Source: Oscillospiraceae bacterium (GTDB lineage Bacteria > Bacillota > Clostridia > Oscillospirales > Oscillospiraceae). Taken from it: a stretch of 42,854 nt of DNA. The notes under the pieces were generated by a model. That model did not search any database, was not told where the DNA came from, and was given only the letters and a program-made list of their open reading frames with translations. Position numbers and translations under genes: made by a program. Positions 2,709 to 15,260 of this stretch are shown here, piece by piece (position 1 is the first letter of the stretch; each line of letters opens with the position of its first letter). The DNA lies in contig CACZPK010000042.1 in NCBI GenBank assembly GCA_902783035.1, forward strand, positions 1 to 42,854, given 5' to 3'.

Positions 2709-3869
2709 TCACTGCCGATACGGCACGCCGTAGTAATATTCGTACGCGGAGAGTACCGCCGGAGTGCGGATGCCGTTTTTGAGCGCTGCGTTCACCTGTG
2801 CCGCCGTCAGCGTCGGTTTGTCCGCCAGCGCGGCGGCTTCCGCCGCCTTTTCCGCTTCCCGCTGCGCCTGTGCCACGCGTTCCGCCTCGACCGCCGCCAC
2901 GATGGCGTCAGCCGCCCCGACGTCGATCCCCGCGCTCTCCAACAGGCTCGTCGAGGGCATGATGCCGCTGCCGATCATCTGCATGGCGGTCTTGTAGGCA
3001 TAGCTGCGCTGCGCCGCCGCGTCCTCGCGTTCATACGCCTCCCGCCGCGCGTCCAGCGCGTCCTGACGGTCGATGAGATCCTTGAGCACGCCCGCATACT
3101 TGTCCGTCTGCTCCTTTGCCGTTTTTGCGGCGGCGTCCGCAACGGCGATATCGCCGGTGAGGCGCGTATCCGTGATGGCGCGGTCAATGCTGCCGATCGC
3201 ACCGATGCGCCCCTGTTCGCCCTGTCGCAGCGCCTCGGCGTACTGCGTATCGTATCCGAGCGCGGTCGTTTCCGCCGCGCCGCCCGTGACACCGCCGGCA
3301 GCAAGGCGCTGGTCGAGGTTCTTGCGGTTTTTCATCTTGTCGATGTAAAGCTGGCGGAACAGCTCGGAGTATTGCTGCTCCGTGGCGGCTTTCTGGCTCT
3401 CCAGACTGTTCACCGCACGATTCACCGCCGCCTCCTGCGCGGCCTTTTGCTCCGCCAGCATTTGCTGATAGGCATTGTTCTGCTCCGCGAGCTGCTGCTG
3501 ATATGCCCGGCTTTGTTCGGCAAGCTGCTGGGTATAGGCGTTCAGCGCGGAGGTCATCCCCGTTGTCACCGGCGACGGGTTGTAAAGGTTGCGGTACTCC
3601 TCCAGCGCCTGATTGAGCGCGGACGTTTGCTGCTGGCGGAGCTGCTGCGTCTGCTGTTGCGACAGGTCCAGCCGCTCGGAGCCGTCCTCACCGCCGGAGT
3701 AACCGTACCGCGCACGGATCGCCTCCGCGCCGGCATGTGCCGCCGCCTTGCCCGCCTCGTCGCCGCGCGCGTTTGCCTCCGCCCACTGGTCCTGATAGCT
3801 CTTGATTGCCGCCTTGTCCGAGCTGGACGTATGGCGGTCGAAGTAATTTCCCTTTGCCTGATAGGCCAT
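2709..3869 (-). CDS. Coiled-coil phage protein with hendecad repeats, possible internal or tail-tip protein
   Basis: This 386-residue protein is the last gene of the virion operon. Residues 24-64 hold a motif of the type AHAGAEAIRARYGYSGGEDGS, which I associate with clostridial phage proteins. Residues 65-180 are Gln/Glu/Ala-rich coiled coil and include three tandem 11-residue units of pattern YxQxLAEQxxA (about 112-144). A glycine-rich turn (AAGGVTGGAAETTAL, about 190-204) precedes further helix, then a short globular C-terminus ending in AYEYYYGVPYRQ. No signal peptide or membrane segment is visible. An ejection, needle or tail-associated role is inferred from position and coiled-coil content. 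No enzymatic motif was recognised. Confidence 0.75.
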   Translation of the reverse strand: MAYQAKGNYFDRHTSSSDKAAIKSYQDQWAEANARGDEAGKAAAHAGAEAIRARYGYSGGEDGSERLDLSQQQTQQLRQQQTSALNQALEEYRNLYNPSPVTTGMTSALNAYTQQLAEQSRAYQQQLAEQNNAYQQMLAEQKAAQEAAVNRAVNSLESQKAATEQQYSELFRQLYIDKMKNRKNLDQRLAAGGVTGGAAETTALGYDTQYAEALRQGEQGRIGAIGSIDRAITDTRLTGDIAVADAAAKTAKEQTDKYAGVLKDLIDRQDALDARREAYEREDAAAQRSYAYKTAMQMIGSGIMPSTSLLESAGIDVGAADAIVAAVEAERVAQAQREAEKAAEAAALADKPTLTAAQVNAALKNGIRTPAVLSAYEYYYGVPYRQ

Positions 3870-3887
3870 GTTGTTCCTCCCTGTTCG

Positions 3888-4556
3888 TCACTCGTCGTAA
3901 TGCGCCATGCGGTCATTGATGACCAGCAGGCGCAGCATATCCCCGCTGAGGTCAAGGTCGGCATCCGGGCCGCTTCCCGTCGTGCCGCGAATGGCGCCCG
4001 CAGCAAGCAGGCGGCGCGTCGTCTCCTCGGCCCAAGGCGCATCGCGCACGATCTCCGCAAGCGTGTGATAGCGCCTTGCGGCGTCGCCCTCGCGCAGCTC
4101 CTCCGGGTGGATATACGCCGCAACGGTGTTCGCCCCGCGCCTGCGCCGCAGCACCGCGCCGCCGTTGGCGTCGTCCGTGCCGCCCGTATTGCCATCGATG
4201 CTTGTCACAAAGCCTTCCGCCGCGCTCTCAAAAATGCCGGCATGGTCGGTCACCCCGCCGCCCGGAAAGTCGAAGATGACGATATCGCCCGGACGCGGCG
4301 CGGAAACGATGCACGCAGGCCGGTTGGCACGGTACCAGCGCAGCAGCGCGCCGCAGCTCGCCGTTTTGAACGGCAGCGCCGCGCCCGCGCGGTCATAGCA
4401 CCACTGCACAAACGCCATGCACCAGGGATACGCCGCGCCGGCAACATCCTGTCCGTAATACCAGGCGTTGTATTTCACGCGGTTGCTGTGCGGCGGCTGC
4501 TCGGTGACGCCCAGCTGCGAGCAAGCTGTTTCCAGCACGTCCCTACCGCTCGCCAT
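3888..4556 (-). CDS. CHAP-domain endolysin with a C-terminal wall-binding-like domain
   Basis: This 222-residue enzyme is predicted to cleave peptidoglycan peptide or amide bonds and release particles by lysis. The N-terminal CHAP domain shows the expected catalytic Cys46 (YPWCMAFVQWC), His105 (TDHAGIF) and a polar residue near Asp121/Asn123 (SIDGNTGG). The C-terminal 60 residues (LAEIVRDAPWAEETTRRLL ... DLSGDMLRLLVINDR) resemble the small helical domain at the end of many clostridial phage lysins. The start overlaps the holin-like gene by 14 bases, and GAGGGAGG precedes it. No signal peptide is present, so export would depend on the adjacent holin-like protein. Both domains appear intact. 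Confidence 0.88.
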   Translation of the reverse strand: MASGRDVLETACSQLGVTEQPPHSNRVKYNAWYYGQDVAGAAYPWCMAFVQWCYDRAGAALPFKTASCGALLRWYRANRPACIVSAPRPGDIVIFDFPGGGVTDHAGIFESAAEGFVTSIDGNTGGTDDANGGAVLRRRRGANTVAAYIHPEELREGDAARRYHTLAEIVRDAPWAEETTRRLLAAGAIRGTTGSGPDADLDLSGDMLRLLVINDRMAHYDE

Positions 4557-4749
4557 GCACCGCGCCTCCCTCCTCGTCCCGTCTGCGCGCCTGCGTGCCG
4601 AAGTAAAACGCGATGACGACCGTGAACACGGTCATAAATTCCTTCCCGTCGATCCCGCGCGTCACCGCGAGATAGGCAAACACCAGCGTCAGCAGCAATG
4701 TGACAATGCTTTTGATGGAGATCAGCCGTTCGGCGATCCGCTCCTTCAT
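4543..4749 (-). CDS. Small membrane protein, holin-like
   Basis: The 68-residue protein has two hydrophobic stretches (about residues 13-30 and 39-51, the second reading TVFTVVIAFYFGTQ) and a charged Arg/Asp/Glu tail. This is the pattern of a small phage holin. It begins with a 4-base ATGA overlap with the XhlA-like gene and overlaps the endolysin start, so the three genes are translationally coupled as a lysis cassette. The role is inferred from size, topology and neighbours. Confidence 0.7.
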   Translation of the reverse strand: MKERIAERLISIKSIVTLLLTLVFAYLAVTRGIDGKEFMTVFTVVIAFYFGTQARRRDEEGGAVHGER

Positions 4750-4991
4750 TTCTCCGTCCTCCTCTCCAGCGCGCCGATCCGCCGGTCGGCGGCGCGGAGC
4801 TTTTCCTCCTGCAGCTCCGTCCGCTCCTCCAAACGGTAGGTACGCTCGATGACCTGATTGTGCTTGTTGACCTTCTCCTCCAGCTGCTCAAGCCGGTATG
4901 CGATCAGAATACTGCTCTTGCGGTTGGAGAGATAGGTGCCCAGCAGGGCCAGCCCGCCCGTGACAAGCGCGACCAGTATCGTCTCGCTCAT
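4746..4991 (-). CDS. XhlA/hemolysin-like membrane coiled-coil protein
   Basis: The ATG at 4989-4991 is chosen because AGGAGGG lies 7 bases upstream; a longer frame upstream of it lacks a ribosome site. The 81-residue product has one N-terminal membrane segment (ILVALVTGGLALLGTYL), then a basic stretch and a long charged coiled coil (LEQLEEKVNKHNQVIERTYRLEER). This is the arrangement of the phage XhlA/hemolysin family that helps holins permeabilise the membrane. It is coupled by ATGA overlap to the holin-like gene. Confidence 0.78.
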   Translation of the reverse strand: MSETILVALVTGGLALLGTYLSNRKSSILIAYRLEQLEEKVNKHNQVIERTYRLEERTELQEEKLRAADRRIGALERRTEK

Positions 4992-5023
4992 GTCTGTTCC
5001 CTCCTCTTTCGCCGTGCCGCCGT

Positions 5024-5266
5024 TCAGCCGTCGCCGCTCCGGGCGCGTTTCGGCGCATAGGCGCACGACATCGTAATGCTGCTCGCGCGGGGCGCATCAT
5101 AGTAAGCGCCCAGCACATGCTCACGCACGCGCAGCTCCCGCAGCATGGATTCCAGCAGCTCCAACTCCCGCCGCGGCGCATGCGCGGCGCGTTTCTGCTC
5201 CAGCCGCGTTTCCAGTGCATCTGCCTCCGCGCGGCACTCCGCCGCCATTTCCCTCATGGTGCTCAT
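5024..5266 (-). CDS. Small helical phage protein of unknown function
   Basis: An 80-residue protein starting MSTMREMAAECRAEADALETRL, with a helical Glu/Arg/Leu-rich body (LELLESMLRELRVREHVLGAYY) and a short basic tail. The start overlaps the end of the preceding 613-residue gene by sequence spacing only (14 bases between stop and ATG). A weak GAGG is the only ribosome site, so translation may depend on coupling. An alternative start is MREMAAE, three codons later. Similar short Leu-rich proteins ending in YY occur in clostridial phages, but I know of no function. It may be a structural accessory or chaperone. Confidence 0.65.
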   Translation of the reverse strand: MSTMREMAAECRAEADALETRLEQKRAAHAPRRELELLESMLRELRVREHVLGAYYDAPRASSITMSCAYAPKRARSGDG

Positions 5267-5279
5267 GTGTCCCGTCGCC

Positions 5280-7121
5280 TCACTTTTTTGCAAAATTGCC
5301 GGCGGCATAGTGCTTGACGATGGCGTAAACGCCAAACCCCTGATTGACCGCGTCGTTCCGGACGAGGATCTGCAGGCGCTTGTAGTTTTTCACCTTGCAC
5401 CGGAACGGAATTTCGGCGGGCGCGTCGTTGACCGCGCCGCCCGGAAGCGGTTCCCAGTCCTCCGATGACGTCTCCGCCGCCTGCCACGCCACGGCGTCTC
5501 GCTCCGTGCGGAACAGGATCTTTGCGCCGGTGGCCGCATAGGGCTTGATGGTCACGGCGTTGCCGTTTTTGAGCATGGTTTTATAAACCATCGGGTCGCC
5601 GTCGTCGTCCGAGCGCGTCGACCAGACCGCGGTGATGGCGGCACCGTCGTCGTTGTAGCGTGCCGCGCCGTCCACGTCCGTATTGAATCGGCACACGCGG
5701 CCGTCCGCCGTACCGAACCACAGCGTCTCCCGTCCGTCCTCCACCGCGCGCAGTACGCAGCGCGCCGGAACATTCTCCCAGTAAAAACACTCGTAGACAA
5801 AACTCGTGTCGTTGCGCGAGGCATAGCTGCGCACCTGCCGCCCGTCCAGTCCGTAGACCCGCCCACCGACAAAAACGAGATATGAGCCGTCATAGCTGCA
5901 CGAAACCGCCTCGGAAAGGTCCTCCGACAGCAGTTTGGGATCAATGCGGTAACTGCGGTTCTGCGCAACGCGCTCCGCGGTGAGGCTGTTGGTGGTCAGC
6001 GCGCAGATGCCGTGTCCCGTAAGGATAAGCTGCTCGTCACCGATGTTCCCGAAGCCGAACCGCGTCACCGCGCCGGCGCCCGCGATGCAGGGCTTGACGG
6101 GGAACACCGCTTCGCCGTCGCCCGCCATGGTACTCGCGCGCAGAAACACGGTGGAATCCTGGCCGTTGTCCTCCTTGACGACTGCCAGATACTCGCCCAG
6201 CCGGCGATAGCCGAGGATGGCCGTCTCGTCCGTGCCGATCACGGCATAGCCCGTGTCGGGCCAATAGGTGCCGTCGGCATAGCCGGAGGTAAAGTCATAG
6301 TTCGGATAGTCCGGGTTTCCGGTGGCAATGATGCGGTCACTCGCCGCACCAACGCCCCAGACCACCGCCGTGCGGCATTTGTTGATGCGATCCGTGTTGC
6401 CGGGCAGCGTCTTGGAGAATGTGATGATCACATTGTCCTCCGCGCCCGCCGCGGGCGCCGCCGGCGCAGTGGTAAAGGTCACGGTACCCGCGCCGCAGTC
6501 GACCCAATAGCCGCTGTGCTGCGTAATGCCGCCCACCTGCACAAGATCAACGCTGGATATATCCTGATACGGCAGCTTGTAAACCGTACTCTGCCCGTCG
6601 GCGAGAAAGCTGACCCGCTGGCGCGGCGTGAGCAGGTTGACCGCTTCATAACTCACGCCGCCGCCCGACGGTGCGCGCGAGATGATCGTCAGTGGAATGT
6701 ACGCCCCATCCGAGGCAAGGCTGAGCTGCGTGCCGTTGTAACGATAAAGCCCGGCGCCCGTAAACAGCCACAGGCTGCCGGACATATACACCGCCGCGCT
6801 GCGCGCGTCCGGCAAGCCGCCGGTCAGCTCCGCCGGCGCCGTACCGTCCGTATACCAGCGGTAGAGTTTTGTCCCCGCATGCACAAGCCGGTGTATCGTG
6901 CCGTTGAACACACCCTCAAACAGCCCGTTGATACGCCCGTCAAAGGTGCGCAGCGTACGCCAGCCCGGGCGTTTTTCGGGCATACCGCCCATGTCGGAGA
7001 TCATGTTCGGCGCCCAGGGGCTGCGCGCGTCGTCAACCAGCGCAGGGTCGGTGGAAAAGTCCACGCCGCGGAACCGCTCATATTTTTTGGTGCGGATTAC
7101 CGCGCCTTTTCTTTTGGACAT
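5280..7121 (-). CDS. Propeller-like tail/stabilisation protein (P22 gp10-like by position)
   Basis: This 613-residue protein is dominated by short beta-rich repeats with aromatic and glycine-rich turns (for example SGSLWLFTGAGLYRYNGT, YDGSYLVFVGGRVYGLDG, RETLWFGTADGRVCRFN), a pattern typical of beta-propellers. Its size and its position directly after a small head-tail adaptor match the short-tailed-phage protein that plugs the portal after DNA packaging. The N-terminal RGVDFSTDPALVDDARSPWAPNM resembles phage proteins that start with a list of sampled parameters. The assignment as gp10-like is inferred from fold pattern and synteny, not from a recognised signature. It starts with ATG 15 bases after the preceding stop. 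Confidence 0.65.
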   Translation of the reverse strand: MSKRKGAVIRTKKYERFRGVDFSTDPALVDDARSPWAPNMISDMGGMPEKRPGWRTLRTFDGRINGLFEGVFNGTIHRLVHAGTKLYRWYTDGTAPAELTGGLPDARSAAVYMSGSLWLFTGAGLYRYNGTQLSLASDGAYIPLTIISRAPSGGGVSYEAVNLLTPRQRVSFLADGQSTVYKLPYQDISSVDLVQVGGITQHSGYWVDCGAGTVTFTTAPAAPAAGAEDNVIITFSKTLPGNTDRINKCRTAVVWGVGAASDRIIATGNPDYPNYDFTSGYADGTYWPDTGYAVIGTDETAILGYRRLGEYLAVVKEDNGQDSTVFLRASTMAGDGEAVFPVKPCIAGAGAVTRFGFGNIGDEQLILTGHGICALTTNSLTAERVAQNRSYRIDPKLLSEDLSEAVSCSYDGSYLVFVGGRVYGLDGRQVRSYASRNDTSFVYECFYWENVPARCVLRAVEDGRETLWFGTADGRVCRFNTDVDGAARYNDDGAAITAVWSTRSDDDGDPMVYKTMLKNGNAVTIKPYAATGAKILFRTERDAVAWQAAETSSEDWEPLPGGAVNDAPAEIPFRCKVKNYKRLQILVRNDAVNQGFGVYAIVKHYAAGNFAKK

Positions 7122-7136
7122 GCCTCCCGCTCCTCC

Positions 7137-7703
7137 TTATCCCCTGTAAAGCGCCTGGCGTACACCGCCGTCGGGCGTGTTTCCTGTGCGCGTCAGCATG
7201 GCGCGCATTTGCAGGTACAGGTTGTAAAACGCGCCATAGTCCACCACCAGATCCGCAATCAGCTGCTGCGCCGCCACAAAAAACGGCAGGCAGTTCGCTG
7301 CTTCCTCCCCGACCTCAAACACATAGCTGTCCGCGGTATCCGGGCCGATGGCGGCCGGCGCCGCGATATAGTCCAGCACGATCAGGGAACGGTCGCCCTC
7401 CGGCGCGGTAAGCCGCCCGTCCACCGCCCCGCAGTCTGCGGCGCGCACCAATCCGCCGCGTCCGTTCTCCCGCCGGATGCGCAGCACGCGCTGCACGTCC
7501 CGAGGCAGCGGCACAGAGCCCGTGCCGTCCATCTGCACCGTCGTGCGCCGCACGATAGGCTGCCATGCGGCAACGTCCCGCTGCGCCATATCGAAAAAGT
7601 CGTTCATGCGCAGGTTCAAGTCGTCGTCCACCGTAACCGTGCCACCGGTGGAATACTCGTCGAGCAGCATCAGCACCCTGCGCTTGCCCTCTCCCAAAGT
7701 CAC
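7137..7703 (-). CDS. Head-tail adaptor-like protein (P22 gp4-like by position)
   Basis: The 188-residue product starts at GTG (7701-7703), with AAGGAGGG upstream. It is mainly helical: an N-terminal VLMLLDEYSTGG, a central segment FFDMAQRDVAAWQPIV and a C-terminal CLPFFVAAQQLIADLVVDYGAFYNLYLQMRAML. This composition and its place between the capsid genes and the propeller-like protein fit the small adaptor that lengthens the portal in short-tailed phages. No diagnostic motif was seen, so the role is inferred. An inverted repeat 20 bases upstream separates it from the capsid genes. Confidence 0.6.
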   Translation of the reverse strand: MTLGEGKRRVLMLLDEYSTGGTVTVDDDLNLRMNDFFDMAQRDVAAWQPIVRRTTVQMDGTGSVPLPRDVQRVLRIRRENGRGGLVRAADCGAVDGRLTAPEGDRSLIVLDYIAAPAAIGPDTADSYVFEVGEEAANCLPFFVAAQQLIADLVVDYGAFYNLYLQMRAMLTRTGNTPDGGVRQALYRG

Positions 7704-7722
7704 AGTATGTCCCTCCTTCCGT

Positions 7723-7759
7723 TGCCCGGAGGGTAGCTTTACAAGTTACCCTCCGGGCA
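7723..7759 (-). terminator. 13-bp hairpin between major capsid and adaptor genes, likely partial terminator
   Basis: The perfect arms TGCCCGGAGGGTA (7723-7735) and its complement (7747-7759) flank an 11-base loop. On the transcribed minus strand there is no T-run after the stem. It is therefore more likely an attenuator, RNA-stability or processing element that lowers downstream expression relative to capsid protein than a full terminator. The whole 7704-7879 gap holds no convincing gene. Confidence 0.6.
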
Positions 7760-7879
7760 TATGTGTCCCCCTTCGCCTTCACCCGTTTGCGGCTGCACGG
7801 CCGCGATAGCGCGAAGACCGGAACCGCGCCCGAGCGCAGTTTTGACCGCAGCGCCCACAGGCGCCGCATTTCGGGACGA

Positions 7880-8830
7880 TCAGGAAGGATTGCTGAAAAT
7901 GATCTGCCGCGCATCTCCCCAACCAACGCCGAAATCAACGTAGCCGGTGTAAAGATCCTTGAGCGGGTTATCCAGCGCGGTCTGCATGACGGTCGGCTTC
8001 GTGATATACACGAGCTTGACCATCTCGCGCATGAGCGCAGGATCGCAGATTGCCCACTGCTTCGCGGCAAAACCGTCGTTACCGCCGCCGATGACCATAT
8101 ATTGCAGGTCGGCAAGCGGGTTCGCTGCATTCAGGTTGCTGGACGGATCACGCTCCGGGCGGAACTTGCCGTTGTCGCCGCAGATCTTTTTCGCCTCCGC
8201 CTCCAGCTCCGGGGACACGAGCAGCAGATTCATGTCCGCGAGCAGCGGCAGGCCGTCAGGGGTCGTAAACCGCCCCGCCATGCCCTGCGCTTCGGTGATG
8301 GCGGCAACACTCAGCGTTTCGGTGATGAGGTTGGAGTAGGTGCCGCTGTCGGGGTCGACAATGTACTTGCGCCCCTGCGAGCCCTTGGAGGCGTTGGGGT
8401 GGTCGGTCGCCGCCCAGCTCTTGCCGTCGCCGCCGGTGCAGGCGGCGTTGAATGCGTTGGCAAACATGCGCAGCGCATGCATGTAAACGGTCATCGCCGC
8501 ACTGTTGCCCAGCATTTTGCCGACGCGGGAGCACTCGCCGCTCTTGTCGATCTTCGCCTGCTTGTAGCCGACGGACTCGGAGAGCGAGAACTCCTCCGGC
8601 GTAATGATGGTCTTGAAGCCGCGCTTCTTCGCGCCCTCGTTGAGGTTGTCGCCGTCATAGGCGGGCATCTCGCCGTAGCCGCCGCTGCCGGTCAGTTCAA
8701 AGTCGATGCTGTTGGAGTTGGCGACGCCGAGGATGGCGAGCAGCTTGTTCAGGCGATTGGCATACGCATAGTCAAACGCCTTGCCGACAAACTTGTAGTT
8801 GTCGGTCTTCCATGCGGTATTCTGAGGCAC
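7880..8830 (-). CDS. Major capsid protein
   Basis: A 316-residue protein starting at GTG (8828-8830), with AAAGGAGG 8 bases upstream. It contains the motif ATDHPNA, like the DHPN/HPN signature of Mu gpT-type HK97-fold capsid proteins. There is a long central helix (SAAMTVYMHALRMFANAFNAAC) and a C-terminal DPLKDLYTGYVDFGVGWGDARQIIF. Its place downstream of portal, putative scaffold and decoration genes supports the call. It is 16 bases from the decoration gene and has the strongest ribosome site in the operon, as expected for the most abundant virion protein. No fragmentation is visible. Confidence 0.85.
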   Translation of the reverse strand: MPQNTAWKTDNYKFVGKAFDYAYANRLNKLLAILGVANSNSIDFELTGSGGYGEMPAYDGDNLNEGAKKRGFKTIITPEEFSLSESVGYKQAKIDKSGECSRVGKMLGNSAAMTVYMHALRMFANAFNAACTGGDGKSWAATDHPNASKGSQGRKYIVDPDSGTYSNLITETLSVAAITEAQGMAGRFTTPDGLPLLADMNLLLVSPELEAEAKKICGDNGKFRPERDPSSNLNAANPLADLQYMVIGGGNDGFAAKQWAICDPALMREMVKLVYITKPTVMQTALDNPLKDLYTGYVDFGVGWGDARQIIFSNPS

Positions 8831-8845
8831 GTCGTATTCCTCCTT

Positions 8846-9526
8846 TTAAGAATTCGTGACGGCAAACACATGTTTGCCGGCGATCAGGTTGATCTTGCCG
8901 AAGCCGATGTCGTGTCCCACGACCTTGACGGGCAGGTTTGCCGTGGCCGACAGCACGAGCGCCGCCCTGCCGCTGTCCAGATTGCCCTTGGCAAAACCGA
9001 TGGGCGGGAACACGGCATAGACGTCGCCCGCCGCCGGTGTACCGCCGCTCTCAACGGTCAGCGTACCGGACGTGGCGGGGCTCCCCGTGGTTGCAAAGTC
9101 CGTGATGCGGCGCACCGTTCCGATCTTGTCCGTATTGGTGCTGTCCGCCGCCTTGGACAGCAGCACAACATATCCGCCGTTGAAGTCGTCCGCCGAAAAC
9201 ACCTTCAGGCCAGTAACCACAATGGTCGTGCCGCTGCCGCCCGCAGCCGCCTCAATCTGCGGCGCCTTGCACTGATAAATCGCGTCGGGATCGTCGATGA
9301 CAAGGATCTTCTTACCGTTGGCGCGCGGGTCGAGGGCATCGGCGTTGCCGCTGTGATTCTCCGCCGCCACGCCGAGCACGGCGCCCGTCTCGTTCACCGC
9401 CGCGGCAACGACCAGCCCGTCCGCGAGTTTCACAAGCTGCCCCTCGGCAATCGCTGTGGCCGCCGCGATGTCGTACTCTCTGGCGCTGACGTGCACACCG
9501 CCGTCGAGTTTCTGATAAAATTTCAT
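8846..9526 (-). CDS. Capsid decoration or head-fibre-like protein
   Basis: The 226-residue protein is rich in Ala, Gly, Val and Thr with many short beta strands (GQLVKLADGLVVAAAV, GTTIVVTGLKVFSADDF, GTLTVESGGTPAAGDVYAVFPP). It has no signal peptide or membrane segment. Proteins of this composition directly before a major capsid gene are often decoration proteins. It lies 4 bases downstream of the putative scaffold gene. The function is inferred from position and composition. Confidence 0.65.
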   Translation of the reverse strand: MKFYQKLDGGVHVSAREYDIAAATAIAEGQLVKLADGLVVAAAVNETGAVLGVAAENHSGNADALDPRANGKKILVIDDPDAIYQCKAPQIEAAAGGSGTTIVVTGLKVFSADDFNGGYVVLLSKAADSTNTDKIGTVRRITDFATTGSPATSGTLTVESGGTPAAGDVYAVFPPIGFAKGNLDSGRAALVLSATANLPVKVVGHDIGFGKINLIAGKHVFAVTNS

Positions 9527-9530
9527 CGGA

Positions 9531-9944
9531 TTACCTCCCCAAGAATTCTTTGGCTGTCATGGCCATCTCCGGATGCTCGGCGTTCCATGCGTCGAGCACG
9601 ATCTTCTGCGCGGGTGAGAGCAGCGCGCCGCCCGCGGTGCCGCCGCCCGTGGAGCGTGCGCTGCGGCTCTCAAAGCGTGCCACCGCCGCCGCACCTGCGT
9701 CGCCGATGAGTGACGTAAAGTCGTCGTAGAGGTCGGCAAGGCACTCCCGACCCATGCGCGAGCCGCAAAAGCGCAGAAAGCGCGCGTTTCCCATCAGCCG
9801 CTCCACATCCACATCACCGTGGCGCGCAAGGAATTCGTCCAGGTCCCGCATCGCAAACGCAAGCCGCGCGCGTTTTTCCTCGGCGATCTCCTCCAGGACG
9901 CCGGTTTCGCCCGCCGACGCGGGCATGGTGTTATCCTGAACCAT
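9531..9944 (-). CDS. Small acidic-helical protein, possible scaffolding protein
   Basis: A 137-residue protein with an acidic helical N-terminal half (EEIAEEKRARLAFAMRDLDEFLARHG) and a glycine/serine linker. A C-terminal helix follows that reads SPAQKIVLDAWNAEHPEMAMTAKEFLGR. I start it at the ATG at 9942-9944, with AAAGGAG upstream, rather than the GTG at 9965. Size, charge and position between portal and capsid genes fit a scaffolding protein. The final segment also resembles a short recruitment helix. No family was recognised, so confidence is moderate. Confidence 0.6.
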   Translation of the reverse strand: MVQDNTMPASAGETGVLEEIAEEKRARLAFAMRDLDEFLARHGDVDVERLMGNARFLRFCGSRMGRECLADLYDDFTSLIGDAGAAAVARFESRSARSTGGGTAGGALLSPAQKIVLDAWNAEHPEMAMTAKEFLGR

Positions 9945-9965
9945 CGTTTGTCTGTCTCCTTTCAC

Positions 9966-11762
9966 TCAGTATTCTATCGTCTCGCCCGCCGCGGGCGCTT
10001 CCCCCGCCGCAGACGGTTCGACCACCGTTCCGTCGCCTTCAAACGCCTCGCGCCAGCGTGCGACGATCTCCTGCTTCTGCGGAATGTCAAGATAGTCCAG
10101 CTCTGCCGCCAGCAGCCGCCAGTTGTCCGCCGTGACCTTTGTCGCCGCCAGTTTTTCCAGCACATCCACCGTTGCCGCCGGACTGCGCGCGAGGCTGTTG
10201 CCAACGCTGACCGTAACATCCACGCGCGGGTAGTACACGCGCCGCTCGCGCAGCGTTTCGCCCGTGAGCGGATCGGTAAGCTCCGGCGTTTCCAGCGCAT
10301 AGTTTGCGCCGTTGTAGACCACTGTTTCCCCCGGCTCGCCGGGCTGCCTGGCGCCGATGAACAGCAGGCGGTCGTCGTCGAAGTATTCCAGCGCCAGGGC
10401 GTCCAGCAGTTCGTAGAGGCGGCAGAAGCCCGCGTTGCGATCCGCGGCCTTCAGCCTTTGCTGTGTCTGCGCGTCCGCACGCAGCTGCATCAGCCCGCTC
10501 GCCGTGGTGACACGGGCGGTCTCCTGCCCGTTGTTGCTGTCGTAATTCCGGTTCGTGCGCTGGATCTGCCCCAGCAGCCAGCCGACCATGCTCAGGCTCT
10601 TCACGCCGTCGGACAGCCCGCCCAGCCGCGCAAGCCCCCCGCCGCGTCCCTGGTTGACGCGCACCACCGCGCCGGGCACGTTGGTAAACTCCTCGCCGGG
10701 GGCGAGCGTCCCCTCCTCCAGAACGACTACGTCGTTGGCGGTCATCGCGTCGTTGAACAACCCCGTCGCCAGCTCGCGGTCGGCGGCGTCCACCAGCGGC
10801 AGGATCGATTCCAGTTCGCTCTTGTTCCAGAACTGCGTCTCGTCGCGGATGCACCAGTAGTGCACAAACGGAAACAGCTCGCACTGCCCGCCCAGCTTTT
10901 CCCAGTAGTTCGGGATATGCTTGAGTTCCACGCCGCCCGCCTGCACGCTGCAGCCGATCGCGCCGGCCCTCGCCTCCTTCGTGTCGAAGGGCTGACGATA
11001 CCAGAATTCCATGATTTGCACAAGGTCGTCGCGCGAGGCGGTGGATTGGGTATACGGCTCCAGCAGATCGTCCGCCTCGCGATACTGCGCCGCACCCACT
11101 ACATCGTCCAGCGCCTTGTCCGCGCGTTTGAGCACGTCGTGGTAAAGCCGCCAGAACCTGAGCTTGTGCATCGTGTAAATGTAAAAAACGTACTCGCCGC
11201 TCTGCAGCCCGTCCGCCCCCGCGGTAGGGTCGGGATAGATGTCCTGCACCGCAACGTCGCGGATACGGATATTGCCCTTTCGGTCGCCGCAGGGCATCGT
11301 CTCGTCCCAATAGGCTTTCCAAAACGCGTCGCCCAGCTTGCGCAGCCGCCGCTCGTTGGCGGTGTTCATATCGCCGAGGCGGTTTTCCTCGATGATATAG
11401 CGCACCGCCAGCTCACGCTCCCTTGCCTTTTTGCCGTCGAGATCGTCGTCACGCCCGTGAAACTCGGGCACAGGCACCTCCGGCTCAATCTGGCTCTCGA
11501 CCATGATATACGGATCGGGCACACAGGCGGGCGTCCACGGCAGCCCGCTTTCTTCAAAGGCGTCCGCCATCTCCCGCGCCGCATCGTGGGCAAAGTTGTA
11601 ATAGTCGTTGTACTTTCGCCACTCGGCCTCCCGTACGGCGCGCTCGTCCTTTGCCTGCTGGAACAGCCACTCTGCCGTGGCGATGCGCCCCTCGGAGGTG
11701 GCGTAGTCGTAGACCCGGCCTTTTTCGTACCCCTCCGGGGTGGGGGTTCTCTTAAATAACAT
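9966..11762 (-). CDS. Portal protein
   Basis: The 598-residue product is predicted to form the dodecameric ring through which DNA enters and leaves the capsid. It follows the large terminase with an 11-base overlap, the standard packaging-module order. Recognisable stretches are an aromatic-rich N-terminal segment (WRKYNDYYNFAHDAAREMADAF), the mid-protein IRDVAVQDIYPDPTA and SGEYVFYIYTMHKLRF typical of large portals, and a Thr/Asn/Gln-rich ring segment (GQIQRTNRNYDSNNGQETAR). Its length is between lambda-type and P22-type portals. The frame is intact. Exact family requires profile searching. Confidence 0.82.
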   Translation of the reverse strand: MLFKRTPTPEGYEKGRVYDYATSEGRIATAEWLFQQAKDERAVREAEWRKYNDYYNFAHDAAREMADAFEESGLPWTPACVPDPYIMVESQIEPEVPVPEFHGRDDDLDGKKARERELAVRYIIEENRLGDMNTANERRLRKLGDAFWKAYWDETMPCGDRKGNIRIRDVAVQDIYPDPTAGADGLQSGEYVFYIYTMHKLRFWRLYHDVLKRADKALDDVVGAAQYREADDLLEPYTQSTASRDDLVQIMEFWYRQPFDTKEARAGAIGCSVQAGGVELKHIPNYWEKLGGQCELFPFVHYWCIRDETQFWNKSELESILPLVDAADRELATGLFNDAMTANDVVVLEEGTLAPGEEFTNVPGAVVRVNQGRGGGLARLGGLSDGVKSLSMVGWLLGQIQRTNRNYDSNNGQETARVTTASGLMQLRADAQTQQRLKAADRNAGFCRLYELLDALALEYFDDDRLLFIGARQPGEPGETVVYNGANYALETPELTDPLTGETLRERRVYYPRVDVTVSVGNSLARSPAATVDVLEKLAATKVTADNWRLLAAELDYLDIPQKQEIVARWREAFEGDGTVVEPSAAGEAPAAGETIEY

Positions 11763-13110
11763 GGTTCCTCCTTTTGCTCTTCGGCGCGATTTTGTCGATC
11801 AGCTTTTCCCGCGCGCACGAAGGCGGTTCTCCGGCGCTTACCGTACGGTACACGCAGAATCCCCGCAGCGCGTCTGGCGCATGGGTCAGCTCGTGCGGCG
11901 TGTTTGCCACGTCGTTCGGGCGGTGCTCATCATATTGCAGCAGCGGCAGCGTGCGAATGATGTTGCGGCAATTCGGGAAAAAGCGCATCTGCGGCCGCTC
12001 CGTGCCGTCCTCACAGCGCCGCGGCTTGAGCCACTCCTTTACCGCCATCCAGCCGTCCACGCGTTCGTTGCCCGTTCTGGTGAGCCAGACCCCATGCTCG
12101 GCAAAGATATCCGCCACGCTCCGCCCCGTCTCCTGTCTCGCGTTCCAGAGGTCCGGCGGGGCAAGATATGCCGTAACCGAATGTCCTCCGGCGAGATGCT
12201 TCACCGCCTCCGCCGCTTCCGACACGATCAGGCCGTCATGTCCGTCACCGAGGTCGCGCCCTTCGTAAACCTCGCCCACGACCCATGCACCGCCATGCTC
12301 GTCCACGCAGATGAGCAGCGCCGCCAGCATGTCGAGTCCGTAGTCCATCGTCACATACCAGCGCCAGTGCTCCGGCGGCACAAATGGCTCGCACACATGC
12401 AGTTCACGGTTCCATTCGGTAAAGTAGCGCCCCGCAAAGACGTCCCAGTTCCCGTCGCGCCACGCCTCACGCAATCCGTGCGGCAGGTTGTCCAGCCGGC
12501 GGACATACTCCGGGTCCTTCTCCATCAGGATGCGGTTATCGGTTACCCTTGCCGGGATAAACACATAGTCCTCCGGCCGCTCCCCGTCGCGAAAATTTCG
12601 CTCGATAAACAGCCGCTTGACCCATGCGTGGCCGACACCGCCGGGGTTGCAGGTCAGGTACATCCGCTTGGGAAAATCGTTTGCGCCGCGCAGGCACGCC
12701 GTCAGCGTCGCGTACTGGTACTCCGTAAAGTGCGTCGCTTCGTCGAGAAAAATCACGTCGTACTCCTGTCCCTGATATTGCTCCACGTCGCTCTCGCTGT
12801 CGCAGTAGCCGAATACGATCAGACTGCCGTTCGGAAACTCGAAGGTCTTGTCCGTCGCGCGGTATTCCGCCACACCCCGCAGCAACCGCCGCATGGGGCG
12901 AATGTGGTTTTCGCGCAGCTCGACGAGCGTGCGCCGCAGGATCAGCGTCCGCAGCCCCGCGTAGCGCACCGCCATCAGGATCGCCTTGTGCCGCACGCAC
13001 CAGCTTTTGCCGCCCCCGCGCGCCCCGCCGTAGCAAACAAAGCGTTCCCGCGCCGCGAAAAACAGCTCCTGTTTCGGCTGGGGCGGCGGATACGCGATCT
13101 CAGTCGCCAC
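11752..13110 (-). CDS. terL: Terminase large subunit (packaging ATPase-nuclease)
   Basis: The 452-residue DNA-packaging motor has a Walker A motif GGARGGGKS (residues 28-36), Walker B DVIFLDE (about 118-124), the coupling motif TCNPGG (about 153-158), and an RNase H-like nuclease domain with TMDYG (Asp about 256) and a late HAPDALRGF. All catalytic motifs that I can check are present. The ATG start overlaps the small subunit by 11 bases and the end overlaps the portal gene, so the packaging genes are tightly coupled. The intact motifs argue against recent decay. Confidence 0.95.
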   Translation of the reverse strand: MATEIAYPPPQPKQELFFAARERFVCYGGARGGGKSWCVRHKAILMAVRYAGLRTLILRRTLVELRENHIRPMRRLLRGVAEYRATDKTFEFPNGSLIVFGYCDSESDVEQYQGQEYDVIFLDEATHFTEYQYATLTACLRGANDFPKRMYLTCNPGGVGHAWVKRLFIERNFRDGERPEDYVFIPARVTDNRILMEKDPEYVRRLDNLPHGLREAWRDGNWDVFAGRYFTEWNRELHVCEPFVPPEHWRWYVTMDYGLDMLAALLICVDEHGGAWVVGEVYEGRDLGDGHDGLIVSEAAEAVKHLAGGHSVTAYLAPPDLWNARQETGRSVADIFAEHGVWLTRTGNERVDGWMAVKEWLKPRRCEDGTERPQMRFFPNCRNIIRTLPLLQYDEHRPNDVANTPHELTHAPDALRGFCVYRTVSAGEPPSCAREKLIDKIAPKSKRRNHVI

Positions 13111-13342
13111 GCTCGCCCACCTCGTCCGACAGCGTCAGGATCACGCGATTGCCCTCGATATCCGCCGATCGGATCGGCTTTTCCAGACCCAGCAGCTTGC
13201 TGATCTGATCCAGCGCGCTCAGCGCGCTTTTGGCGTCAAAGGACTTCGGCTCCTCCTGCGTACATCGCTCGTACACCTCAAGGTACTTCCGGATCACGTC
13301 GTCCTGCGTCAATTTCGGTTTGCTCCTTTTCCGTTCCGCCAT
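13100..13342 (-). CDS. terS: Terminase small subunit-like protein
   Basis: The 80-residue product starts at the ATG 13340-13342, with GGAGGGGAGG upstream; the longer frame has no site. It begins with a basic segment (MAERKRSKPKLTQDD), then helical VIRKYLEVYERC and DAKSALSALDQISKLLGLEKPI. This resembles the second half of phage TerS proteins. Typical TerS proteins have a helix-turn-helix and are longer, so this one may recognise DNA in a reduced way. It is the first gene of the operon and overlaps terL. It ends in an acidic tail EVGERGD. Confidence 0.72.
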   Translation of the reverse strand: MAERKRSKPKLTQDDVIRKYLEVYERCTQEEPKSFDAKSALSALDQISKLLGLEKPIRSADIEGNRVILTLSDEVGERGD

Positions 13343-13389
13343 GCGTTTGCCTCCCCTCCGTGTTTTCGCTGTCCCCACACGCGGGTATC

Positions 13390-13402
13390 TTAATAAGTTA
13401 CC
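13390..13402. promoter_or_regulatory. Second copy (inverted) of the GTAACTTATT half-site
   Basis: TTAATAAGTTACC reads GGTAACTTATTAA on the minus strand and shares 10 bases with the palindrome at 13515-13531. It lies in the leader of the structural operon, 48 bases before the terS start. It may be an auxiliary operator that loops with the main one. Confidence 0.4.
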
Positions 13403-13477
13403 ACTTGGACAAATCAAGCCCTTGCGCACGGTATTTCATTCTTTTCTGTGCGCGTCCATTTTATCCATGTTTCCACC

Positions 13478-13507
13478 ATTATAGGGGCATCGCAGCTCCC
13501 TTGTCCA
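13478..13507 (-). promoter_or_regulatory. Second predicted promoter for the virion operon
   Basis: On the minus strand TGGACA (13502-13507) and a perfect TATAAT (13478-13483) are separated by 18 bases. It begins 8 bases downstream of the 17-bp palindrome, in the direction of transcription. It would give a leader of about 130 bases before terS. Confidence 0.5.
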
Positions 13508-13514
13508 TTTGTTT

Positions 13515-13531
13515 GTAACTTATTACGTTAC
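13515..13531. promoter_or_regulatory. Putative repressor operator, 17-bp palindrome
   Basis: GTAACTTATTACGTTAC has perfect 5-bp arms and a near-symmetric centre. It covers the expected start point (about 13529) of the minus promoter at 13536-13564 and abuts the -35 of the second one. This is the place for a repressor site. The neighbouring S24 repressor is the obvious candidate; binding is not shown. Confidence 0.5.
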
Positions 13532-13535
13532 TAAT

Positions 13536-13564
13536 AGCATAGCACACATCCTGTATCTTGTCAA
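13536..13564 (-). promoter_or_regulatory. Predicted main promoter of the virion operon
   Basis: On the minus strand TTGACA (13559-13564) and TATGCT (13536-13541) are separated by 17 bases. The -35 box is back-to-back with the repressor's own -35, so the two promoters face away from each other and the 9-bp arms CTTGTCAAG/CTTGACAAG (13557-13583) form an inverted repeat. Confidence 0.6.
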
Positions 13565-13575
13565 GTTATTTTTCC

Positions 13576-13603
13576 TTGACAAGCGGCAAAAGTGTGATAC
13601 GAT
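13576..13603 (+). promoter_or_regulatory. Predicted promoter of the S24 repressor gene
   Basis: TTGACA (13576-13581) and TACGAT (13598-13603) are separated by 16 bases. The start point would be near 13610, giving a leader of about 30 bases with GCGAGG before the ATG at 13639. Its -35 lies in the right arm of the inverted repeat at 13557-13583, so a protein bound to the repeat could also regulate the repressor. Confidence 0.55.
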
Positions 13604-13638
13604 AGGCATACAGAAAGAAGGAAAGCGAGGTATGCGCC

Positions 13639-14409
13639 ATGACGCTGGGCGAGCGCATCAAGTCGGCGCGGGAAGCGCTGGAGCTGACACAGGAAGAGCT
13701 GGGCGCGCTGTGCAATACGACGAAGCAGACCATTTTCAAATATGAAACGGGCATCGTTACCAACATTCCCCTCGACCGGCTGGAGCTGCTCGCGGAAAAG
13801 CTGGGGGTCCCCCCGGCCTATCTGACCGGTTGGGAGGATGGCGCCTTTGCGCTGCCGGAAAAGCTGGGCGCACTGGCAGAGCCGTTCGGCATGCTGAACG
13901 ACGACGGGCAAGACAAGGTCGTGGGCTACACAAGGGACCTCGTCTCCTCCGGCCGTTATGTTCGCCAGACGGAACCGCATCCCGTCGTCCTGTCCTTCCC
14001 GCGGGCAAAGCGGCGCGCCGACGGCTTTGTGGAGTTTAAGGTCTATGACGAACCCGCGGCAGCGGGTCTCGGCAATTACATCGACCTGCCGTCCTACACC
14101 ATGGAGCAGTATCCCGCAGCCCTTGCGCCGGAGGGGGCGGAATTCGGCGTGCGCATCTCCGGCGACTCGATGGAGCCGGACATTCCCAACGGCTGCACGG
14201 TGTTCGTGCGCCCGACGCCCGCGGTGGACCCCGGCGAAATCGGCATTTTCGTGCTCGACGGCCAGGCATATTGCAAAAAGCTCATTGCCGACCGGGAGGC
14301 GCGTCAAACAAAGCTCCGTTCCCTCAACCCGAAGTATCCCGACATCGTGGTGCGGGATGAAACACAGATGCGCACGCTCGGGCGCGTGCTGGGACATTAT
14401 CCGGTGTGA
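13639..14409 (+). CDS. Self-cleaving phage-type repressor (XRE helix-turn-helix plus S24 peptidase)
   Basis: This 256-residue protein joins an N-terminal XRE helix-turn-helix (residues 1-65; [21 protein letters not shown]) to a LexA/CI-like S24 domain (about 132-256). The probable cleavage bond is Ala142-Gly143 in PAAAGLGNY, the catalytic Ser is Ser177 in [13 protein letters not shown] and the Lys is Lys213 in YCKKL. All residues needed for RecA-stimulated self-cleavage are present. It is divergent from the virion operon, with a palindromic operator between them, so it should repress that operon and release it after DNA damage. Its length and architecture fit phage CI-like proteins rather than host LexA, which usually has a winged helix. 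GAGG lies 8 bases upstream of the start. Confidence 0.9.
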
Positions 14410-14489: not shown

Positions 14490-15260
14490 ATGCAGGAGCT
14501 GGAACGTCAGTATCACATTCACTGCGCACCCGGAGAGGTCGGGCGCTATGTTATCCTGCCCGGCGACCCGGGCCGCTGCGCCTCCATCGCGGCGTATTTT
14601 GACGATGCAAAACTCATCGCGCAGAACCGCGAGTACACCACCTACACCGGCACACTGCTCGGCGTACCCGTGAGCGTTTGCTCTACCGGCATCGGCGGCC
14701 CCTCGGCGTCCATCGCCATGGAGGAGCTGCACAAGCTGGGGGCGGACACTTTTATCCGGACGGGAACCTGCGGTGGCATTGATCTGGACGTCAAGTCCGG
14801 CGACATCGTGGTCGCGACGGGCGCGATCCGCTACGAGCATACGAGCACGGAGTATGCGCCCATCGAGTTCCCCGCCGTCGCCGATTTCGGCATCGCCGCG
14901 GCGCTGACGAATGCCTCGCGGGCGCTGGGCTACACGACCCACACCGGCGTGGTACAGTGCAAGGACAGCTTTTACGGCCAGCACAGCCCCGAGGCCAGCC
15001 CCGTCTATTACGAGCTGCTGCAAAAGTGGGAGAGCTGGAAACGTCTCGGCGTCAAGGCAAGCGAAATGGAGTCCGCGGCGCTGTTCGTCGTGGCGGCGGC
15101 ACTCCACGTCCGCTGCGGTTCCTGCTTCCACGTCGTGTGGAATCAGGAGCGTGAAAAAGCGGGACTGGATCAGGACATGAGCGAGGATACCTCCGCCGCG
15201 GTCAAGGTCGCGGTCGAGGCGCTCAAGACCGTCATCGCGCAGGACAAGGCGTCAAAATGA
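14490..15260 (+). CDS. udp: Uridine phosphorylase-like nucleoside phosphorylase
   Basis: This enzyme cleaves uridine with phosphate to uracil and ribose 1-phosphate, in cytoplasmic pyrimidine salvage. The 256 residues match E. coli Udp (253). Visible signatures are the phosphate-binding GDPGR near residue 26, the central [24 protein letters not shown] and the ribose-binding motif EMESAALF. The frame extends further upstream but the ATG at 14490 has AGGAGAGG at the right distance. Its 3' end overlaps the racemase gene by ATGA, giving translational coupling. Uridine is preferred over purine nucleosides because EMESAAL and the sequence context follow the Udp side of the family; substrate is not proven. 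Confidence 0.87.

Follow-up and report, generated by a model that had tools for sequence, protein, structure and literature searches.

The FpGTA element of Faecalibacterium (Borodovich et al. 2026, PMC12946183) is presented, in the available part of its description, as the first podovirus-like element of the gene transfer agent (GTA) kind, with a small terminase subunit (TerS) that has no obvious DNA-binding domain. The same source reports random DNA packaging for Ruminococcaceae and Oscillospiraceae, where a search of four assemblies gave an operon in a single one. In RcGTA, the GTA of Rhodobacter capsulatus, TerS starts at the coiled coil and, according to the portion of the source at hand, appears to be without the N-terminal DNA-binding domain (PMC6854486). 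Here we describe a block of 13 virion and lysis genes with a divergent S24 repressor gene, located between the host genes mscS and udp in a 42,854-nucleotide stretch of DNA from an Oscillospiraceae bacterium (assembly GCA_902783035.1, contig CACZPK010000042.1; the whole stretch is called the window), which is contig 42 of an assembly estimated to be 85% complete. FpGTA, to judge from the available text, is its closest known counterpart by architecture. With reasonable probability, the block is a domesticated element working like a GTA, in which packaging and transfer are predicted functions; this reading is supported by its conserved place, purifying selection, the loss of the DNA-binding half of TerS, and the failure to find an integrase. 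The host is a rumen bacterium that keeps the genes of a small virus-like particle at a fixed chromosomal place; with its DNA-recognition part lost, this particle probably takes up random stretches of host DNA, governed by a DNA-damage switch.

Chromosomal place and the shortened TerS

The search for the block in genomes of the same genus, proposed in a first-pass annotation of the window, finds it in 12 of 18. Relatives of the large terminase subunit (TerL) and of the S24 repressor occur in the same 12 genomes, each search also picking up one more genome, in which the match is partial or distant and lies elsewhere, and at E 1e-60 the repressor is found in three of 300 genomes of a family sample, all from this genus. 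In 10 of the 12 carriers the contig with the block also bears mscS and/or HAD/udp, and in five of them (G000, G080, G290, G307, and G310) both boundaries, mscS and udp, are present on one contig; the contig of G305 is too short to show them. The order mscS-block-repressor-udp, put forward earlier as possibly conserved, holds as a link to the locus in these 10 carriers but not throughout, since the block of G300 is in reverse orientation and that of G304, discussed below, lies elsewhere. A fibre-like protein, c12, is encoded in eight of the 18 genomes, all of them carriers of the block.

Integrase, att sites, and replication genes, by which a temperate prophage would be recognised, were not found at the locus. 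No integrase is present in the mscS–udp intervals among the matches listed, and a Pfam scan of the open reading frames (ORFs) outside the phage clusters in the five one-contig intervals recognised neither an integrase, within the scope that incomplete assemblies allow, nor replication genes. The ORFs called there encode host enzymes, transporters, or proteins without a match; in G301, which is not among these five genomes, an IS605-type transposase lies between the terminal block gene g13 and mscS. The mobility and replication genes described at first as absent are also missing from what could be recognised in the window itself. No tRNA gene was found in the window, and there is no sign of an att repeat: the longest direct repeat between the flanks comprises 12 bases, a length equalled in 5 of 100 shuffles, in agreement with the earlier statement that no such repeat is evident.

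TerS of the window (13100–13342, minus strand) probably starts at position 13342, giving 80 residues, rather than at 13429, because this start fits its relatives. Compared with a 157-position model derived from 12 viral TerS sequences (147–175 residues), it gives a partial match, aligning solely to positions 68–93 and 111–152, and all 12 viral proteins align near full length, from positions 1–9 to positions 153–156. The restriction to the C-terminal half (positions 61–154) is common to all 12 readable copies of the genus, to all three copies of genus g84, and to four IMG/VR contigs; as the last four were assigned to the locus type partly by gene content, 12 plus three is the cleaner count. The copy in G301 shows an additional weak, low-complexity match at model positions 28–59. 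In translated searches the N-terminal halves of the viral proteins matched none of 19 loci of this type, while in the control each of the 12 viral proteins was recovered by the N-terminal halves of the others. Pfam recognises one viral form as Terminase_2 and the form of the window as nothing, and a prophage-like relative in G430 (family f16) has retained a full TerS (positions 2–153). Nine of the 12 viral contigs carry the same capsid family, two (L054 and L057) share only TerL and portal, and one (L199) shares TerL, adaptor, and nozzle; six are shorter than 11 kb. The test did not include L233, L259, L261, and L270 (same contig or near duplicates), nor contigs with the TerS-like family d14 (121–171 residues). 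On sequence grounds, a TerS predicted to be without its N-terminal DNA-binding half is a published mark of GTA-type TerS.

In genus g84 (L155, L156, and L158), TerS and S24 of the block kind lie beside PGA_cap in all three genomes, with rimP and nusA seen at two of the loci and TerL either complete or truncated where the contig ends. By these gene calls, the site beside PGA_cap is another conserved site for such a block, with TerS likewise apparently without its N-terminal half.

The per-gene dN/dS analysis suggested at first reveals constraint. Between G080 and G310, dS amounts to 0.26–0.55 for TerS, TerL, portal, capsid, g7, g8, g13, and S24, matching the values of 0.38–0.52 for flanking mscS, udp, and HAD. 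Omega is 0.06–0.26, with g13 at 0.37; it equals 0.06 for TerL, 0.12 for both capsid and portal, and 0.16 for S24. The outliers are c12 (dS 2.4), g10, and g4, although the value for g4 comes from a short g4-like ORF and has no meaning. Between the window and its relative L231, omega is 0.16–0.23 for TerL, portal, capsid, and S24. G080 and G310 are joined in the S24, TerL, and host-gene trees (95, 100, and 100, respectively), and both TerL and host genes add G305 to this pair (91 and 91). Sequences G307C68, G302C277, G310C51, G310C22, G310C23, G154C3, and G209C10, as well as the mscS paralogue of G209, were kept out of the trees, and G303, with too little sequence, was kept out of the host tree.

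Over 10,087 bases, contig 68 of RUG12493 (L033/L143) agrees with the window at 99.99% identity; inside g13 it then passes into an unrelated sequence of 319 bases (L033 10092–10410). Recent transfer between species was set aside as an explanation; the contig was treated as mis-binned or probably chimeric and was not used in the trees.

Genes of the block and their predicted control

All 13 virion and lysis ORFs are on the minus strand, from TerS (13429) down to position 2709, and all have intact frames. Neighbouring genes overlap at four places, by 11, 11, 4, and 14 bases, and the single long intergenic gap, of 176 bases, separates the capsid from the adaptor gene, so that the initial description of 13 intact same-strand genes with several overlaps agrees with the ORF calls. 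TerS is followed by TerL (11752–13110; Terminase_3, 1.3e-13) and the portal (9966–11762; P22_portal, 1e-12). The next gene, g4 (9531–9965), has no family match and is a probable scaffold by its position between portal and capsid and by its relatives, whereas g5 (8846–9526), present in relatives but missing in G080 and G310, is by position a probable head decoration protein. The major capsid protein (7880–8830) belongs to phrog_371, with a weak Mu gpT-like match (2.7e-5) and an HK97-fold model. After that come the head-tail adaptor g7 (7137–7703; SU10_adaptor, 5.4e-6), the 613-residue tail nozzle g8 (5280–7121; phrog_3287, 7e-34, and a model compared with podovirus tail proteins), and the small protein g9 (5024–5266), known from its ORF call and relatives. 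The XhlA/holin-like small protein g10 (4746–4991) matches phrog_1863 (2.5e-10), a family without assigned function, with XhlA and holin matches below the cut-off. The holin-like g11 (4543–4749) matches phrog_13256, likewise a family without assigned function, and has kin in the contractile block of sister species described below. The CHAP endolysin (3888–4556; CHAP, 2.5e-9, and motifs) is followed by the coiled-coil protein g13 (2709–3869), which reaches no family at the cut-off; that it is an ejection protein is a guess. No Pfam cut-off is reached by TerS, g4, g5, g8, g9, or g13. On the plus strand are the S24 (CI/LexA-type) repressor with its self-cleavage motifs (13639–14409; Peptidase_S24, 1.4e-22) and, identified by family searches, the host genes that bound the conserved locus, mscS on the left (1834–2643) and udp, encoding a PNP/UDP phosphorylase, on the right (14490–15260).

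A pattern search located GARGGGKS and VIFLDE in TerL, WC and DHAG in CHAP, and AAG, GDSM, and KKL in S24, which we take to be the catalytic motifs of these proteins; their completeness had been noted before. The capsid model (mean pLDDT 82) matches HK97-fold capsids, with that of RcGTA (6tb9) at rank 2, and the low-confidence g8 model (mean pLDDT 65) finds its matches among podovirus tail proteins, with P22 gp10 at rank 4. Models and family matches support a podovirus-like particle with a P22-type portal, an HK97-fold capsid, and a P22-gp10-like nozzle, and the matches of portal, adaptor, and nozzle justify the original term short-tailed. In two species, a protein of 437–714 residues without a Pfam match is inserted between TerL and portal (L115:13082-15226, L117:5065-6378), and pieces near this insert resemble the end of g4.

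The block promoter, TTGACA-17-TATGCT (13536–13564, minus strand), is a promoter-like pattern whose TTGACA is conserved in 13 aligned copies; between TerS and S24 there are three promoter-like sites, compared to 0.5 expected. A pattern search yielded four operator-like sites: the first (13554–13568) overlaps the −35 hexamer, the second (13516–13530) lies just past the −10 hexamer at a distance of 38 bases from the first, the third occupies positions 13386–13400, and the fourth (7734–7748) is located within a dyad (7723–7759) between the capsid and adaptor genes. Four sites in 42.9 kb compare with 0.28 expected, a figure that is post hoc since the pattern was drawn from the alignment of the 13 copies. 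The near-palindrome TAACTT-N3-AAGTTA, with up to two mismatches, is found two or three times between repressor and TerS in 12 of the 13 copies and once in G300, and six copies have one to three more elsewhere on the locus read. Among 12 repressors of the genus, GDSM is retained in 11 (not in G305) and a KKL-type lysine pattern in 10. The divergent repressor and operator of the first-pass annotation are matched by an intact S24 gene and by operator-like sites beside the block promoter, where S24 would be expected to bind.

Probable domestication and rival explanations

Under the GTA-like reading, a podovirus head-and-lysis module would have arrived at the mscS–udp locus and then been domesticated. 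DNA damage would lead to self-cleavage of the S24 repressor, as its motifs suggest, freeing the promoter between repressor and TerS, where the sites themselves are present and binding is predicted; one long transcript, consistent with the gene order, would then provide the proteins of capsid, portal, and short tail together with the terminase. With the DNA-binding half of TerS gone, a loss that is observed and whose effect is extrapolated from published work on RcGTA, TerL would start packaging without pac recognition and would pack mostly random pieces of the chromosome. The holin-like protein and the endolysin would release the particles. Since no integrase was found, the element would be passed on with the chromosome, as is seen from the locus and partly from the trees, with some gene exchange with phages. 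GTAs are hard to distinguish from defective prophages, and here the full-length TerS of viral relatives exposes one step of domestication: the DNA-recognition half of TerS is gone, the packaging and capsid genes are under selection, and the phage switch is kept. Podovirus-like GTAs would then be more than an oddity of Faecalibacterium. This block and the contractile one in sister species would be specific candidates to account for the random packaging of DNA that the FpGTA study reports for Ruminococcaceae and Oscillospiraceae (PMC12946183).

Several observations weigh against this reading. The block of G304 lies beside a UDP-GlcNAc epimerase gene, with its S24 on a separate contig; the copy in G290 is decayed, having lost the genes from portal to nozzle; G302 holds a second, partial copy (C277); and block gene order varies between copies. 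The fibre-like c12 was not found in the 85% complete assembly of the window, nor in G290, G301, and G305, so particles of the window strain may lack a receptor-binding part. The TerL tree pairs G290 with G307 (82), whereas the host tree pairs G290 with G309 (84) and places G307 elsewhere (100); the portal tree pairs G302 with G309 (100), again in conflict with the host tree, and viral contigs L233–L235 nest with G300, G304, and G309 in the capsid tree (93–96). We read the descent of the block, as far as such trees indicate, as inheritance with the chromosome plus gene exchange with phages, with more than one capture possible. Viral contigs L055, L245, and L271, outside the TerS test, carry short ORFs (103–123 residues) before TerL, and a short TerS may therefore not be limited to chromosomal copies. 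Finally, classic GTAs are usually controlled by the host and not by a phage repressor, while the block keeps an S24 repressor of its own; for this reason we call the element GTA-like in its mode of action and stop short of classing it among the GTAs.

The best surviving rival, although an unlikely one, is an ordinary family of temperate podophages settling at this site, its replication and integration genes lost or missed, with a cryptic prophage as the window copy. The capsid family of the block is present at 45 IMG/VR loci, nine or more of them on contigs of 33–39 kb and six (L227–L232) resembling the locus copies in gene content; the nesting of some viral contigs among locus copies in the capsid tree and the retention of a phage-type S24 repressor also speak for such a family. 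Viral relatives of the head module adjoin genes for a DNA methylase, PcfJ-like, and DUF3102 proteins, with a replication-associated match below the cut-off, and none of these neighbours was seen at the mscS–udp locus. Linkage of integrase or replication genes to the block elsewhere, raised beforehand as the sign of an ordinary prophage, is approached only insofar as viral relatives lie beside other phage genes; at the locus none was seen. A temperate family also fits poorly with the lack of a detectable integrase between the boundaries in the five one-contig genomes, the loss of the DNA-binding half in every readable TerS of the genus, block dS values equal to those of the flanks, and a window in which no att repeat or tRNA was found.

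In a wider sample of the order, the capsid occurs in 23 of 394 genomes, one copy each, two of these from the genus of the window. Six of the regions outside this genus were read: four (families f19 and f20) are compact operons of 8–11 genes between apparent host genes, that of f15 has six recognised block genes and no called TerL, and that of f16 resembles viral contig L246. Podovirus-like operons flanked by what seem to be host genes were noted in other families of the order (L324, L325, L326, L328, and L329), with capsids 45–55% identical to that of the window. The TerS-like ORFs of f15, f19, and f20 gave no match to the viral TerS model (E 0.1 or worse), and among the isolated phages of a phage collection the block capsid found no match beyond 33% identity over 45% of its length. 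Maps of some high-GC loci, with unreliable self-trained gene calls, were not used.

Less probable still is a domesticated killing particle, which may pack host DNA but would kill relatives instead of transferring genes. The strong divergence of c12 between the sister species G080 and G310 would be expected of a protein that recognises targets. However, killing by contraction requires a contractile tail, and that of the block is short; terminase and portal are strongly constrained, and the window copy is without the fibre gene. A PBSX-type alternative of this sort is discussed for FpGTA in the text available (PMC12946183).

We consider it about as improbable that the window strain harbours a decaying, functionless remnant, a case that would still allow for a functional element in sister species. 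The missing c12 and the loss of portal to nozzle in G290 point in this direction, but all 13 window frames are intact and omega in the comparison with L231 is low. Relaxed selection or stop codons in relatives, mentioned in advance as a warning sign, are represented by the decayed G290 copy and opposed by the dN/dS constraint and by packaging genes intact in most of the 12 carriers. Of the three options first considered, the GTA-like element is thus supported, and a pure remnant does not fit these intact genes. The third, a satellite packaged or moved by a helper phage, would suit the small size and the lack of recognised replication genes, but capsid-forming satellites (cf-PICI) carry an integrase and borrow tails, whereas here no integrase was found and nozzle and lysis genes are the block's own, and we reject it as highly improbable.

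The contractile block and known systems

In five genomes of this genus (G154, G253, G306, G311, and G209) the mscS–udp interval is occupied by a different compact block of ~13.5 kb, encoding TerS, TerL, portal, capsid, tail sheath, LysM and hub proteins, wedge, and endolysin. Both boundaries are seen on one contig in G311 and on two contigs in G306, the mscS side in G154 and G253, and the HAD/udp side in G209. The other neighbour in G253 is a permease gene, followed by recG, and the copy of G209 has lost capsid, sheath, and tube. G308 was assigned to neither type of block. With five sister species carrying this block at the locus, one particle seems to have replaced another; these species stand together in the unrooted host-gene tree (98), with G307 adjoining (100), a grouping that fits one switch.

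The capsid of the contractile block is found in 105 of 300 family genomes and 48 of 106 genera, at 57–100% identity and without stops, and at one place per genome except for one case split over two contigs. Among 20 loci from 14 other genera, 18 agree in gene order; the exceptions are L217, which is rearranged, and L218, which has no sheath. The flanks differ between genera: of 35 loci, two adjoin recG, one HAD, and one mscS, and a non-systematic comparison saw no clear common flanks that would indicate exchange of the two particle types at the same site in other genera. TerL of podovirus type occurs in 86 of the 300 genomes, and both particle types in seven, compared to 30 expected (Fisher p 5e-11, a statistic that ignores kinship). 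No long tape-measure gene was seen in the contractile block (L122:1524-15234, L121:2917-17032, L147–L149, L152, and the 35 loci L200–L219 and L286–L300), and its TerS has at most 121 residues in 26 of the 36 called. By gene content, it is a candidate for a family-wide GTA or tailocin.

Record MT835769.1 (L197, 1–18586), a "Bacteriophage sp." from human faeces, Mexico, contains the contractile block with host recG, dfr, thyA, udp, and HAD, and the host genes beside the block are as in the genus of the window. Its source may be a purified particle fraction, provided that the presumed link between the record and the paper is right (PMC8361208).

Tentatively, and with a little less than even confidence, the mscS–udp locus may be seen as a standing slot that first belonged to an old contractile GTA-like element. 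In one subclade, a podovirus-like GTA would then have taken its place, and swaps of this sort would recur across the family and explain the rarity of genomes with both particle types. As part of the same estimate, the replacing GTA would have lost TerS specificity and kept a phage repressor controlled by DNA damage.

Among known systems, P22-like and SU10-like podophages have portal, adaptor, and nozzle folds like those of the block, according to Pfam and PDB matches, and are autonomous phages. PBSX of Bacillus subtilis, a contractile domesticated phage particle of a Gram-positive that acts by killing, is closer to the contractile block of the sister species than to the block of the window. 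RcGTA is siphovirus-like and, to our knowledge, has no S24 repressor. It shares with the block an HK97-fold capsid and a TerS without the N-terminal DNA-binding domain, as far as the source at hand shows (PMC6854486); unlike the block, it is under the host regulator GafA, according to the available part of another report (PMC9638019).

No prior description of either block was found in the open-access literature searched. FpGTA, in the accessible text, resembles the block in its operon of ~10.5 kb with TerS, TerL, portal, scaffold, and capsid, in the missing obvious DNA-binding domain of TerS, in being podovirus-like and without replication genes, and in its conservation across a genus of related bacteria (PMC12946183). 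The two differ in that the fibre, baseplate, holin, and endolysin genes of FpGTA form a second operon, in one strain at a distance of ~125 kb, and that text mentions no repressor belonging to FpGTA, whereas in the window the lysis genes and the S24 repressor adjoin the head genes (PMC12946183). As FpGTA was already published in January 2026, the new element type envisaged in the first-pass annotation is too strong a term for the block.

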